A model generated the notes under the pieces. That model was not told the origin of the DNA, searched no databases, and was given only the letters and a program-made list of their open reading frames with translations. The position numbers were made by a program, and so were the translations under genes. From Gammaproteobacteria bacterium (lineage in GTDB: Bacteria > Pseudomonadota > Gammaproteobacteria > PS1 > Pseudothioglobaceae), in the NCBI GenBank assembly GCA_029243595.1, contig JAQWRQ010000016.1, forward strand, positions 1 through 40,827: a stretch of 40,827 nt of DNA. The letters run 5' to 3'. How positions within the stretch are numbered: position 1 is the first letter of the stretch; each line of letters opens with the position of its first letter. Of this stretch, positions 2,302 through 25,847 are shown in pieces.

Positions 2302-4668
2302 CTATGATTTTTTCGACGCTTTTTTGGTGGTCTTTTTAACTGCTTTTTTCTTGGCTTTCTTTTTACGCTTAGCAGTTTTAGATTTGATTTTTCCAGCAAT
2401 GGCTTTTTTACACTCTTCTAGTGTGAGTTCGCCTGGCTCTTTATTACCAAATAATTTAGAAATAGTAATGTTCTTTTGGCCTTTGCCTTTTTTCTTGCCG
2501 TTCCAAATGTAAGGGCCAAAACGACCATTGAGAATTTGAATTTCAGAATCATCAAAGGTTTTGATAATGCGCTCGGCATCAAATTTTTCTTTAGCGGCGA
2601 TCAGTTCCAATGCTTTTTCAAGCGTGACGTCTTCAGGAATATCCTCTTTCAAAGAGACATATTTCTTGCCATACTGTATGTAGGGGCCAAAGCGACCATA
2701 GTTAGCTTTAATAACACCAAAGTCATCTGTTTCACCTACTGTACGTGGCATGTTGAATAGCTCTAATGCCTCGTCAAGGGTAATGGTCTCAATAACAAGA
2801 TTGCCACGCAGTGAAGCGAAAGCCGGCTTATCCTCGTCATCTTTATGGCCGATTTGTGCGAAAGGGCCAAAGCGCCCAAAACGCACGCTGACAGGTTTTC
2901 CACTCTTTGGATCAATACCAAGATCGCGCATGCCGTGTGTTTCTTCTCTAGAGATGTCATCTGCCGCTTCAATTTTTTCATGGAAAGGGCCGTAGAATTC
3001 TTTAACCACACCTTGCCAAGCAACACCTTGATTAGCAATGGTGTCAAAATCGGTTTCTAAATTTGCTGTAAATTTGTAATCAACAATATCACCAAAATGT
3101 TTAACCAAGAAATCGGTTAATAAGTAAGCAACACTGGTTGGGAAAAGTTTATTTTTCTCAGCGCCTGTATTTTCTGTTGGCTCCGACTGTTCAACCTTGC
3201 CTTCGTTGATCTCAATTAGCTGATACGTACGCTCTGCACCCTCGCGCGTTTCTTTAGAAACATAATTTCGATCTTGTACGGTTGACACCATAGTGGCAAA
3301 AGTAGAAGGACGACCAATACCCATTTCTTCAATTTTCTTCACCAAAGAGGCTTCGGTGTAACGTGGTTTAGCACGTGAAAAGCTTTCCCTAGCAGCAAAA
3401 CTAGCCAAAGTTAATTCATCGCCTTGGCTTAAGTCTGGCAATAGTTTGTCGTCTGATGACAAGTAGTCATAAACACTTAAAAACCCTGGGAACACTAATA
3501 TTTCACCATTTGCCAAAAAGGTTTCATCGCGATTAGAAATGTTGGTTTTAATTTGTGTTCTTTGTAGTTTTGCATCACTCATTTGTGAAGCTAATGCGCG
3601 CTTATAAATCAATGCGTACAGTTTGGCTGCCTGATCTTCCAAACCATAAATCTCCGACTTGGTTAAATCGGTTGGTCGAATGGCCTCGTGCGCTTCTTGT
3701 GCGCCTGCGTCTTTAGTTTTGTAGCGTCTTGCCTCATGGTACTCAGCGCCATACTTAGAGGTAATTTCTTTTTGGGCTGCCGCAATCGCCTCTTCAGACA
3801 ATGTGAATGAGTCAGTTCTCATGTAGGTAATTGCACCTTCACGATATAGATTTTGCGCCAAAGTCATGGTCTGTTTAACTGAGAATCCTAACTTCTGAGA
3901 CGCCTCTTGCTGCAAAGTTGAAGTGATAAACGGTGCTTTTGGCGAACGCTTAGAAGGTTTTTTCTCAATGCTATTAACATTGAGTGTTGCGTCTAATAAT
4001 TTATTAGCAAACTCAAGCGCCTCATCTTTTGTCGAAAAGTCTTTATCAAGTTTTGCTTCAATTAACTCACCTGCACCGTTCACCAAATCGGCTTTAATTT
4101 TAAAAGTGCTTTTAACCGTATGATCGTTAATCTCTCTTTCTCTTTCTACTACTAAACGCACCACCGGAGACTGCACTCTACCTGCTGACTTTGCACCTGA
4201 AACTTTTTTCCATAGGACGCCTGATATCTCAAACCCTACCAAACGGTCAATAACACGTCTGGCCTGTTGCGCATCAACAACATCAAAATTTACTGTTTTT
4301 GGCTCTTGAATCGCTTTTGTAATTGCGCTTTTTGTAATCTCATGGAAAACAATGCGTGGCGTCTCTTTCGGTAAGTCAAGCGCTTCTAGCAAATGCCATG
4401 CAATTGCCTCTCCTTCGCGGTCCTCATCAGTCGCGAGATAGACTTGTTCGGATTTTTTGACTGCTTTTCGAAGATCAGTGACGACTTTTTTCTTGTCAGC
4501 GCTGATTTCATAATTTGGCTTGAAGTTATTTTCAATCTCAATGCCGTTTTTCTTAGCCATATCACGGATATGGCCGATACTAGACTTAACCTGGTAGTCT
4601 TTGCCTAAAAATTTTTCAATTGTTTTGGCTTTAGCGGGGGACTCAACAATAACAAGATTTTTTGCCAT
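2302..4668 (-). CDS. topA: DNA topoisomerase I, form with C-terminal repeats and lysine-rich tail
   Basis: TopA relaxes negative supercoils by cutting and rejoining one DNA strand. The 788-residue protein has the Toprim domain (VIVESPAKAKTI at 6-17; acidic DEDREGEA at 81-88). The active-site region GAITYMRTDS places the catalytic tyrosine at 282. The C-terminal part has three GRFGP-type repeats (FGRFGPFAQIG, YGRFGPYIQYG, NGRFGPYIWNG) of the topoisomerase C-terminal repeat family, then about 30 residues of almost pure Lys/Ala/Thr. There are no CxxC pairs, so the zinc ribbons of E. coli TopA are absent. The start codon overlaps the smg stop by one base. Confidence 0.97.
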   Translation of the reverse strand: MAKNLVIVESPAKAKTIEKFLGKDYQVKSSIGHIRDMAKKNGIEIENNFKPNYEISADKKKVVTDLRKAVKKSEQVYLATDEDREGEAIAWHLLEALDLPKETPRIVFHEITKSAITKAIQEPKTVNFDVVDAQQARRVIDRLVGFEISGVLWKKVSGAKSAGRVQSPVVRLVVEREREINDHTVKSTFKIKADLVNGAGELIEAKLDKDFSTKDEALEFANKLLDATLNVNSIEKKPSKRSPKAPFITSTLQQEASQKLGFSVKQTMTLAQNLYREGAITYMRTDSFTLSEEAIAAAQKEITSKYGAEYHEARRYKTKDAGAQEAHEAIRPTDLTKSEIYGLEDQAAKLYALIYKRALASQMSDAKLQRTQIKTNISNRDETFLANGEILVFPGFLSVYDYLSSDDKLLPDLSQGDELTLASFAARESFSRAKPRYTEASLVKKIEEMGIGRPSTFATMVSTVQDRNYVSKETREGAERTYQLIEINEGKVEQSEPTENTGAEKNKLFPTSVAYLLTDFLVKHFGDIVDYKFTANLETDFDTIANQGVAWQGVVKEFYGPFHEKIEAADDISREETHGMRDLGIDPKSGKPVSVRFGRFGPFAQIGHKDDEDKPAFASLRGNLVIETITLDEALELFNMPRTVGETDDFGVIKANYGRFGPYIQYGKKYVSLKEDIPEDVTLEKALELIAAKEKFDAERIIKTFDDSEIQILNGRFGPYIWNGKKKGKGQKNITISKLFGNKEPGELTLEECKKAIAGKIKSKTAKRKKKAKKKAVKKTTKKASKKS

Positions 4669-18040: not shown

Positions 18041-18075
18041 GGCTTTTTTTGAAACAAACTAACCGAGGAGAGAAT

Positions 18076-19362
18076 ATGGCACACGTTGTCGTTATTGGCG
18101 CAAGTACGGGCGGATTACCTTTTGCCTACGATGCTAAAAAAACACTAGGGAAAGACCACAAAGTTACGGTAATTTCCAACAACCCTGATTTTAACTTTAT
18201 TCCTTCCAACCCATGGGTAGCAGTTGGCTGGCGCTCTGAAGATGACATTAGTTTTGAATTGGAGCCTAGGCTTAAGAAAAAAGACATTAATTTAATTGTT
18301 GGTGAAGCCACTGAAATTAAACCTAACGATAATCAAGTCATAGTTGGCGATCAAGTAGTGGATTACGACTACTTAGTGTTGGCTACCGGCCCTAAACTGG
18401 CTTTTGATGAAGTAGATGGCCTTGGCCCTGACGGGCACAGTGTTTCAATCTGTACAACAGCACATGCCAAGGTTGCCTCTAATGAATGGGAAACATTCTG
18501 TAATAATGGCGGTGGCCCGATTGTGGTTGGCGCAGTGCAAGGCGCCTCGTGCTTTGGTCCGGCTTATGAATTTGCTTGTATTATGGACACCGACCTTAAA
18601 AAACGCGGCATTCGTGACAAGTGTCCGATGACCTTTGTCACCGCTGAGCCGTATATTGGTCATCTTGGCCTCGGTGGTGTTGGCGACTCAAAGGGCTTAT
18701 TAGAGTCAGAATTCAGACAACGCCATATTAAATGGATCACCAATTCAAAAGTCACTTCAATTACTAAAGACACGGTAACAGTTGAAGAAGTAGACAGCGA
18801 AGGCGCCGCCATTAAAGCCCATAAAGTTGCCACCAAGCACACGATGATGCTGCCGGCCTTTAAAGGTGTTGATGCTGTAGCAAACTTGTCTAATGTTGAT
18901 GCAGGTTATGTTAATCCACGTGGCTTTGTTATGATTAACGATTATCAGCAATCACCCGTTAAAGACAACATTTTTTCACTCGGTGTGAATATCGCTATCC
19001 CACCGGTTGAGCCAACACCAGTGATGTGTGGCACGCCAAAAACCGGCTACATGATTGAATCTATGGTTACTGCTACCGTACATAATATCGAAGAAATGAT
19101 TGCCGGAAAGTCACCATCCAACATCCCAACTTGGAATGCGGTTTGTATTGCTGACATGGGTGATACCGGTGCAGCGTTTGTGGCCATGCCTCAAATCCCA
19201 CCGCGTAATGTAACCTGGGCCAAAAAAGGCAAGATGATGCACCTCGCAAAAATTGCCTTTGAGAAATTCTTTATTCGTAATATGAAAACAGGTAATCCAG
19301 AACCAGCTTATCAAAAATATATCTTTAAGATGTTGGGCATTGAGCGTTTAAAGAAAAAATAA
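18076..19362 (+). CDS. sqr: Sulfide:quinone oxidoreductase (FAD-dependent)
   Basis: Sqr oxidises sulfide at the inner membrane and passes electrons to quinone, forming sulfane sulfur. The 428-residue protein has an FAD-binding N-terminus (HVVVIGASTGGLPFAY), the ATG motif YLVLATGPKL at 100-109, and three cysteines in the places expected for Sqr: Cys126 (SICTTAHA), Cys159 (GASCFGPAYEF) and Cys318 (PVMCGTPKTGY). The last two would bridge the FAD. The C-terminal stretch after about 390 (MMHLAKIAFEKFFIRNM) is amphipathic and could bind the membrane. A flavocytochrome c flavoprotein is less likely because no signal peptide is present. An in-frame TTG at 18049 was rejected in favour of the ATG with GGAGAG. 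Confidence 0.88.
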   Translation: MAHVVVIGASTGGLPFAYDAKKTLGKDHKVTVISNNPDFNFIPSNPWVAVGWRSEDDISFELEPRLKKKDINLIVGEATEIKPNDNQVIVGDQVVDYDYLVLATGPKLAFDEVDGLGPDGHSVSICTTAHAKVASNEWETFCNNGGGPIVVGAVQGASCFGPAYEFACIMDTDLKKRGIRDKCPMTFVTAEPYIGHLGLGGVGDSKGLLESEFRQRHIKWITNSKVTSITKDTVTVEEVDSEGAAIKAHKVATKHTMMLPAFKGVDAVANLSNVDAGYVNPRGFVMINDYQQSPVKDNIFSLGVNIAIPPVEPTPVMCGTPKTGYMIESMVTATVHNIEEMIAGKSPSNIPTWNAVCIADMGDTGAAFVAMPQIPPRNVTWAKKGKMMHLAKIAFEKFFIRNMKTGNPEPAYQKYIFKMLGIERLKKK

Positions 19363-23484: not shown

Positions 23485-23521
23485 AAAAACCCTTGGGTGT
23501 GAAAACATTCAGGGGTTTTTT
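23485..23521 (+). terminator. Terminator after adk
   Basis: AAAAACCCTTG and CAGGGGTTTTT pair with one G-T wobble around a loop that has weak internal pairing. The stem ends in a run of six T. It lies 50 bases after the adk stop, just upstream of the dsbD promoter, and separates the two genes. Confidence 0.8.
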
Positions 23522-23597: not shown

Positions 23598-25847
23598 TTG
23601 AAGCGATTATTATTGCCACTATTTTTATTGTTATTTTCTGTTTTTGCACAAGCAGAAAATGATTTGTTGCCTGCCGACGAGGCATTTAAATTTAAAGCTA
23701 AAGTGGTTAATGACGAAATACTGCTTACTTGGAATATTGCAAAAGGATATTATCTTTATAAAGAAAAGATCAAAATTTCTTCGGATTATTCTACTCAGCT
23801 AGGCACCGCAAAGTTTCCAAAAGCCAAAGTTAAAAATGACGAATTTTTTGGCAGAATAGGGGTTTATCGCAATAGCGCTGTGGTGGCCGTTCCTGTGCTT
23901 GAAGGCGATGCAAGATCAGTTTTATTAAACGTTACTTTCCAAGGGTGTGCAGATCTAGGTGTGTGTTATCCGCCGATCACAAAATCAGTGGCGCTTGATA
24001 TTAGCAATATCCATAGCCCATCACTGGTTGACAATGCGCTCAGCATATTGTCTAAGGCAAAAACCAAAGTCAGCTCTGTTGTAGAAAAAGTAGTGCCGGT
24101 TTCTGACGAGCCACTGCCTGCCGACGAGGCGTTTGCTTTTTCTGTTATTGCCATAGATGCCAACACACTGATGGTCAGTTGGAACATTCACCCAGAGTAT
24201 TACTTATATCACGATAAATTTTTCATTGAGACCCTGGGCGCTGAAATTGGTGACGTGATTTTTCCTAAGGGCAAAGAAAAAGACGATCCTTTATTTGGCA
24301 AAGTTCAAATTCATAAAGGCCAACTCAATGTTGAAATTCCACTTAAAAATATTCAATCAACACCGATTACTTTTATCGCCAAATATCAAGGTTGTTGGCT
24401 GGGTGGTATTTGTTATCCACCGTTAGAAAAAACCACCGACATTGTGTTGCCAATTCAAGGTGCTCAGCCCATTATCAATACACCCAAACCCGCAGTAACG
24501 ACTAGCAATAACAATATAGTCGTAAACACAGCTGTAAATACTGAGGCGGTTGAACTAAATGAAACTGACCAAATTGCAGCCTTACTGCAACAAGATAATA
24601 TTTTCTTGGTTTTAGCCAGCTTCTTTGGTTTTGGCTTGTTGCTCTCATTAACGCCTTGCGTGTTCCCAATGATCCCAATTCTATCGGGTATTATTGTTGG
24701 GCAAAAAGGCGAGGTCAGCACACAAAAAGCACTGATTATGTCAATTGTATTTGTACTGGCAATGAGTGTGACTTACTCTGTTGCCGGCGTACTCGCAGGC
24801 TATTTTGGTGAAAACTTACAAGTGCTGTTCCAAACCCCTTGGGTGCTGGTGGTATTCGCCCTGGTGTTTGTTGCTTTAGCACTCTCCATGTTTGGCTATT
24901 ACGAGATTCAACTACCGGCTAGCTTGCAAAACAAAATTTCTAAGATCAGCAATAAACAAGAAGGTGGGCATTTAATTAGTGTTGCCATTATGGGCTTCTT
25001 GTCTGCGCTGATTGTTGGCCCTTGTGTTGCGCCACCGTTAGCAGGTGCGTTGATTTACATTGGTCAGACGGGTGATGCTCTGCTTGGTGGTGTGTCTCTA
25101 TTTGTGATGAGTTTGGGCATGGGTGCACCGCTAATCGCTATTGGTGCCGGTGTCAGCAAACTACCTAAAGCAGGTGGCTGGATGGACAACATCAAATACA
25201 TATTTGGTGTCTTGATGCTGGCCGTGGCTATTTGGCTACTAGACCGCATCACCTCTCAAGTGGTGTCGCTTGCACTGTGGGCAACTTTATTTAGTTTCTC
25301 TCCAATTGCGATGGGTGTGCTCAATTCACTCACCAATACACCAACACCATGGCAACGTATTTTTAAAGCCATTGGCCTGCTAGTGTTGGCTTACGGTATC
25401 CTGCTTTGGGGCTTAGTGGCTCGTGGTGGTGGCGACATGCTAGCACCACTATCCGGCTATGGCAACGGCGCCCAAGTGGAGCAAGTGCATGTTAAGTTTG
25501 AAAAAATTAAATCAAACAAAGACCTTGATCAAGCACTGCTTAGAGCTAAAGCTAATAGCCAAATTGTGATGCTTGATTTCTACGCTGATTGGTGTATTTC
25601 TTGTAAAGAACTAGAGCGCTTCGTATTCTCAAATACTGGTGTGGTTAATAAAATGCAAAATGTGATTGCATTACAAGCAGATGTTACTGCCAACGATACC
25701 GCTGACAAAGCATTAATGGCTCGCTTTAATATCATTGGGCCGCCGGCAATTTTGTTTTTCAAAAATGGTATCGAGAATCGCCCACAACGTATTGTTGGCG
25801 ATATTAATGCACAGGGTTTCCTTGAACACTTGAGAAAATCTCAATAA
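23598..25847 (+). CDS. dsbD: Thiol:disulfide interchange protein DsbD with duplicated alpha domain
   Basis: DsbD carries reducing power from cytoplasmic thioredoxin to the periplasm. With a TTG start after GGGAG, the protein is 749 residues and opens with a clean signal peptide (MKRLLLPLFLLLFSVFAQA). Two tandem alpha domains follow (about 20-140 and 170-290). Each keeps the cysteine pair: Cys117/Cys123 (QGCADLGVCYPP) and Cys266/Cys272 (QGCWLGGICYPP). The membrane beta domain has Cys354 (LTPCVFPMIP) and Cys476 (VGPCVAPPL). The C-terminal thioredoxin domain has WCISC (Cys666, Cys669). E. coli DsbD has one alpha domain in 565 residues. Longer starts upstream would spoil the signal peptide and lie before the predicted transcript start. 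Confidence 0.93.
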   Translation: MKRLLLPLFLLLFSVFAQAENDLLPADEAFKFKAKVVNDEILLTWNIAKGYYLYKEKIKISSDYSTQLGTAKFPKAKVKNDEFFGRIGVYRNSAVVAVPVLEGDARSVLLNVTFQGCADLGVCYPPITKSVALDISNIHSPSLVDNALSILSKAKTKVSSVVEKVVPVSDEPLPADEAFAFSVIAIDANTLMVSWNIHPEYYLYHDKFFIETLGAEIGDVIFPKGKEKDDPLFGKVQIHKGQLNVEIPLKNIQSTPITFIAKYQGCWLGGICYPPLEKTTDIVLPIQGAQPIINTPKPAVTTSNNNIVVNTAVNTEAVELNETDQIAALLQQDNIFLVLASFFGFGLLLSLTPCVFPMIPILSGIIVGQKGEVSTQKALIMSIVFVLAMSVTYSVAGVLAGYFGENLQVLFQTPWVLVVFALVFVALALSMFGYYEIQLPASLQNKISKISNKQEGGHLISVAIMGFLSALIVGPCVAPPLAGALIYIGQTGDALLGGVSLFVMSLGMGAPLIAIGAGVSKLPKAGGWMDNIKYIFGVLMLAVAIWLLDRITSQVVSLALWATLFSFSPIAMGVLNSLTNTPTPWQRIFKAIGLLVLAYGILLWGLVARGGGDMLAPLSGYGNGAQVEQVHVKFEKIKSNKDLDQALLRAKANSQIVMLDFYADWCISCKELERFVFSNTGVVNKMQNVIALQADVTANDTADKALMARFNIIGPPAILFFKNGIENRPQRIVGDINAQGFLEHLRKSQ

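Follow-up and report, generated by a model that had tools for sequence, protein, structure and literature searches.

The window, by which we mean the whole stretch of 40,827 nucleotides that was analysed (contig JAQWRQ010000016.1 of a Gammaproteobacteria bacterium), carries a dsbD gene that starts with a TTG at 23598 and whose TAA stop ends at 25847 (Table 1). The automatic list of open reading frames prolongs the frame upstream to a TTG at 23493; MKRLLLPLF, the shared start phrase of the relatives, favours the TTG at 23598. A Pfam scan of the 749-residue protein returned DsbD_N (PF11412) twice, followed by DsbD_TM and a thioredoxin-type domain, and when the two halves were scanned separately the DsbD_N matches reached 105.4 and 96.0 bits (cut-off 25 bits), which bears out the earlier note in reading two complete N-terminal alpha domains. 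Both copies, the outer one (N1) and the one adjoining the membrane part (N2), contain the QGC-x5-CYPP motif, with the cysteines at the positions that had been named. The membrane domain (PF02683) scores 321.9 bits and holds one cysteine per half, the gamma domain matches solved cDsbD structures (E 5.9e-28) and provides a CxxC pair, and the whole-protein model NF001419 (protein-disulfide reductase DsbD) reaches 714.7 bits (cut-off 330). The features that define DsbD, namely DsbD_TM, a C-x5-C alpha domain, a CxxC gamma domain and the whole-protein match, are all found, as are two alphas, beta and gamma in a single frame, which define the two-alpha subtype. Judged by its sequence, the protein is an ordinary DsbD and belongs to a two-alpha subtype that is widespread.

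Table 1. Coordinates of the dsbD gene and its parts in the window
Feature	Position	Strand	Basis
dsbD, two-alpha form, 749 residues plus stop, TTG start	23598..25847	+	domain and family models
Probable signal peptide, residues 1-19, MKRLLLPLFLLLFSVFAQA	23598..23654	+	judged by eye
Alpha domain N1 (outer copy), C117/C123, cap loop DEFFG	23658..23996	+	
Linker between alphas, residues 141-169, predicted disordered	24018..24104	+	AlphaFold, pLDDT under 50
Alpha domain N2 (adjoins membrane part), C266/C272, cap loop DPLFG	24105..24443	+	
DsbD_TM (beta) membrane domain, C354/C476	24603..25250	+	
Gamma thioredoxin-fold domain, WCISC (C666/C669)	25479..25841	+	

Two other assignments were rejected. 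TsoB, a rhodanese/DsbD fusion selenoprotein, was considered via NF045694, which reaches only 207.9 bits (cut-off 805) and covers the membrane and gamma part only, and a CcdA/SoxV protein, consisting of the membrane domain only, is ruled out by the presence of alpha and gamma domains. Of 80 collected loci, some of which end too early to include it, 46 have aroQ downstream, and this conserved neighbourhood suggests that the two-alpha gene is the usual dsbD orthologue. A few genes upstream of dsbD, positions 18049-19362 encode an FAD/NAD(P)-dependent oxidoreductase that by eye resembles sulfide:quinone oxidoreductase.

The textbook Gram-negative route by which reducing power is sent outward is DsbD, presented there with a single alpha domain. 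The window protein has the alpha, beta and gamma domain types, their order, the cysteine pairs and the NF001419 match in common with E. coli DsbD. The latter has 565 residues and one alpha, and relative to it the gene was rightly described as an in-gene duplication, the extra alpha and linker amounting to ~150 residues. Further differences from the E. coli protein are the gamma motif WCISC and, in N2, a leucine in place of the cap-loop residue Phe70. An AlphaFold model of the tandem alphas, computed from a 48-sequence alignment, displays two beta domains (mean pLDDT 85.5) joined by a linker of ~30 residues with pLDDT under 50 (model residues 124-152); its pTM is 0.59, and the mutual placement of the two domains is therefore not fixed by the model. 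Both domains fold like nDsbD of E. coli and Neisseria. By VIA-align, N1 superimposes on Neisseria nDsbD (6dps) with Z 17.9 over 114 residues at an rmsd of 1.4, and N2 on E. coli nDsbD (1vrs) with Z 17.8 over 113 residues at an rmsd of 1.3; the best sequence matches to solved nDsbD have E-values of 2e-24 (N1) and 2e-17 (N2). A tandem immunoglobulin-fold arrangement is reportedly present in the N-terminal periplasmic part of ScsB from Proteus mirabilis, a DsbD-like transporter (according to the title of a 2018 paper by Furlong and colleagues). The structure of that part, 6c29, matches one model domain (Z 11.4, 110 residues, 19% identity) and was not listed in the sequence-profile search with the tandem.

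Tandem DsbD_N domains on one contig were found in 8 of 9 genomes of the genus, the ninth (77% complete) containing a weaker paralogue only, in 47 of 60 genomes of the family, and in 28 of 84 genomes of the class, a sample with mostly one genome per family in which 77 of 84 have any DsbD_N match. A draw across the phylum, weighted to other families, identified the tandem in 2 of 22 genomes of the same class and in none of 68 genomes of other classes. The two-alpha form is common in the class, though not the majority, and its share varies with the families drawn; the outcome that the earlier note named as refuting its reading, two-alpha DsbD being the common form across gammaproteobacteria, thus largely applies. 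Among the named carriers are Thiomicrorhabdus, Thiomicrospira, Thiocystis, Allochromatium, Methylocaldum and Guyparkeria, all drawn from the 80 collected loci, which are best matches to a mainly two-alpha query and hence uninformative on frequency. Three gammaproteobacterial loci that were scanned (L109, L114 and L118) all have the architecture of the window protein, two DsbD_N domains followed by DsbD_TM and thioredoxin, and the two-alpha DsbDs of other Gammaproteobacteria receive the same NCBIfam name. From other carriers (e.g., Thiomicrorhabdus, Thiocystis, Methylocaldum, Candidatus Ruthturnera) the window protein differs by sequence divergence only, with best-segment identities of 72% to Ruthturnera and 44-46% to the three scanned loci. 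From tree position, the family of the window appears to include Candidatus Ruthturnera, Vesicomyosocius, Thiodubiliella and Thioglobus-type genomes. No paper on two-alpha DsbD was found in the open literature, to which the search was confined, and this counts as a weak negative; database domain listings may already show the architecture.

Several loci depart from this layout. Two DsbD frames of 849 and 889 residues (L306 on contig C47 of G104, and L288 on contig C1 of G097) contain one recognised alpha and long N-terminal extensions, in which a very divergent second alpha is possible. In Candidatus Thiothrix singaporensis (L164), a stop codon at ~3439-3441 parts N1 (open frame of 179 residues) from N2 and the membrane part (open frame of 613 residues) in the same frame, so that the gene is split or the sequence contains an error.

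The two copies of the window protein share only about a third of their residues (34% over 108 residues by BLAST, E 3e-25; 32.7% by global pairwise alignment). They differ in the cap loop and in the residues that follow it. A phenylalanine at the position aligned to E. coli F70 occurs in 72% of N1 domains (n=137), 28% of N2 domains (n=137) and 15% of single alphas (n=26), counts from which nine loci repeating already collected genes, as well as identical domains, were left out. This cap-loop difference is consistent with different gating of the N1 and N2 active sites. Both copies do begin with LPADEAF, as had been noticed, and in the window the codons of this phrase are nearly alike, with 19 identical bases in a stretch of 20. 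Such near-identity would favour a recent duplication special to the source organism, a reading that the wording of the earlier note could suggest. However, LP[AP]DxAF is the usual start motif of alpha domains in the family, and among 137 two-alpha proteins LPADEAF itself is more frequent at the start of either copy than any other phrase, occurring exactly in 13 N1 and 18 N2 domains; its codons diverge in relatives. The shared phrase is real, and as a sign of recent copying it is rejected. Recent duplication in this organism is further contradicted by the divergence of the copies, by the presence of the tandem throughout genus, family and class, and by the separate clades described below, which together refute it at the genus and family level and leave it with practically no credibility.

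In a tree of both copies with other DsbDs, the family N1 domains and the family N2 domains form separate clades (support 96/91 and 100/100), and the split between them therefore predates the family, as the check suggested by the earlier note was meant to reveal. Within the family, N1 domains are on average 75.6% identical to one another and N2 domains 69.0% (23 proteins, 253 pairs). The best tree places all 23 N1 domains on one side and all 23 N2 domains opposite; support at this node is 42/76, and a duplication at the level of the family, with p 0.19 in the AU test, is not rejected. Deeper in the class, the copies keep recognisable signatures: HMMs trained on 103 two-alpha proteins assigned 197 of 206 held-out domains to the right copy. 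Raw identity barely separates them at this range, window N1 being closer to N1 than to N2 in 67 of 103 proteins and window N2 resembling N2 more than N1 in 56 of 103. A larger domain tree needs 9 changes for N1 and 15 for N2. A single class-wide origin of two-alpha DsbD is favoured, although not proven. At two loci (L063 and L152) the protein's own N1 and N2 are adjacent in the tree, and some tandem copies may be independent duplications or products of gene conversion. The split of the copies is older than the family, and the duplication is neither recent nor rare.

A tree of the membrane-plus-gamma part, in which the window row was over-long (763 aa) and columns filled in <30% of rows were dropped, nests the family's single-alpha proteins in the two-alpha family clade (100*), and because of this nesting it is simpler to suppose that N1 was lost. 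When the family N1 and N2 models were compared on 12 examined single-alpha proteins of the family, the N2 model gave the higher score in every case, and the 12 form a clade with N2 (100/97); joining them to N1 instead is rejected by an AU test (p 9e-123). With class-trained HMMs, N1 was called for 6 of the family's 14 single-alpha entries (which stand for 12 genes, L079/L218 and L092/L219 each being one gene entered under two labels) and for 7 of 42 family N2 domains, and only family-trained models sort the family's single alphas cleanly. Among class-wide single alphas, models whose training set lay outside the family favour N2 in 21 of 25, the E. coli alpha being a near tie within this set (114.7 vs 114.1, called N1). 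Decay of the outer copy is seen in one genome (G297, contig C22, L220), where both active-site cysteines of N1 are replaced (QGYADIGIGYPP) and N2 is intact; this is a natural outer alpha domain predicted to be inactive, and its genome shares a genus code with the single-alpha genome G291. No other N1 in the 137 two-alpha proteins lacks the motif, and the single N2 lacking it, L006_N2, does so only because its sequence runs into unknown bases (N). As the family's single alphas are N2-type and the N1 of G297 is cysteine-less, N2 would serve as the core outlet, with N1 as an accessory that can be dispensed with; the loss events rest mostly on draft assemblies. In family proteins that have both copies, conservation is higher for N1 in 212 of 253 pairs, although the pairs are not mutually independent. 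N1 is probably under selection where it is kept, a pattern that fits poorly with a mere accessory. Two further loci from a mostly single-alpha genus (L216 and L217, of G326 and G330) have GYFIVK or GYFVVK in N1 compared with GYYLYK in the window, and these N1 domains are perhaps heading for loss.

Given the domain order, the intact cysteine pairs of both copies, their folds, a split that predates the family, the retention of N2 and the loss or decay of N1, all of which are directly supported, we think it probable that the protein works as an ordinary two-alpha DsbD with N2 as the indispensable outlet and N1 as an ancient accessory served by the same gamma domain. By analogy with E. coli DsbD, electrons would travel from cytoplasmic thioredoxin via the membrane cysteines to the gamma CxxC pair, and reduced gamma would pass them through an alpha domain to periplasmic partners. 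N2, beside the membrane core, would act as the standard outlet, and N1, held on its flexible linker, would likewise be reduced by gamma, adding capacity or partner range; most relatives retain it in well-conserved form, and in some it is lost or inactivated. That the two alphas are instead interchangeable and only make reduced alpha locally more concentrated on one membrane core is conceivable, if doubtful: the full active-site motif is present in both, and N2 alone suffices in some members of the family, but pure redundancy would not maintain the position-specific signatures kept class-wide, and the cap loops and following residues differ between copies. The order N1-linker-N2-membrane, with its flexible linker, might also suit a serial relay from gamma via N2 to N1, which would then reach partners further from the membrane; we regard this as very unlikely, as N2 becomes the direct donor once N1 is lost, and we know of no case of electron transfer from alpha to alpha. 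With two alphas in roughly one in three of the class genomes sampled, and with the same copy lost in members of one family, these proteins offer a natural set for studying what limits the outlet step.

Its own small genome yielded no full-length membrane hub of the DsbD type besides the window gene, which as a single finding amounts to an ordinary annotation. A single full DsbD_TM gene and no second CcdA/SoxV-type gene scored above cut-off, next to one DsbE/CcmG above cut-off (contig C25, 26694-27224) with several weaker relatives, one DsbC_N (DsbC-type) protein (C13, 11559-11756) and one SoxY (C15, 4140-4448); one hub therefore plausibly feeds several partners. According to PMC7347389, E. coli DsbD feeds DsbC, DsbG and CcmG all from one alpha, and several partners thus do not require a second one. 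A division of labour, with N1 dedicated to SoxY/SoxW-like proteins, N2 to DsbC and CcmG, and N1 lost together with its partner, is unlikely overall, and its more specific form, a Phe-tuned outer alpha serving as second outlet for a sulfur-oxidiser partner (SoxY/SoxW-like) and discarded with it, is a shade less credible still. Besides the enrichment of the cap-loop phenylalanine in N1 and the lack of a second CcdA/SoxV-type gene above cut-off in the own genome, the co-occurrence of SoxY argues for it. In the class, SoxY is found in 20 of 28 two-alpha genomes and in 19 of 48 single-alpha genomes (Fisher p 0.009, kinship ignored; G022, with a weak 29-bit match, was put with seven no-match genomes rather than with the 48). 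In the family, it occurs in 39 of 47 two-alpha genomes and 1 of 10 intact single-alpha genomes, 8 of which belong to one genus, and genus g223 lacks SoxY in 11 of 11 genomes, having a single alpha in 8 and the tandem in 2.

Against dedicated outlets, tree-independent pairs give no signal (4 supported pairs, median p 1), with the DsbD gene tree standing in for a species tree and with long branches at G020, G014 and G015. This tree was built from 70 rows, after removal of second copies, of rows shorter than 300 aa, of three rows in which their own HMM found no alpha (G033, G039, G094) and of two coreless loci (G069, G093). There are exceptions in either direction: G326 and G330 retain N1 although they lack SoxY, G291 has SoxY and no N1, G297 has SoxY and the cysteine-less N1, and in the class 8 of 28 two-alpha genomes are without SoxY while 19 of 48 single-alpha genomes have it. 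The link between SoxY and two-alpha DsbD is a loose correlation, only suggestive, and serves as a lead. The own genome further encodes a second DsbD_N-like domain (C51 of G000; L239, 1608-3878) in a 756-residue protein that contains no DsbD membrane domain. An apparent signal peptide precedes an N-terminal DUF255 thioredoxin-like domain (Thioredox_DsbH) with CHWC, and the C-terminal DsbD_N-like domain scores 31.8 bits and has a C-x4-C pair; with similar genes in relatives, the product could be a soluble partner of DsbD.
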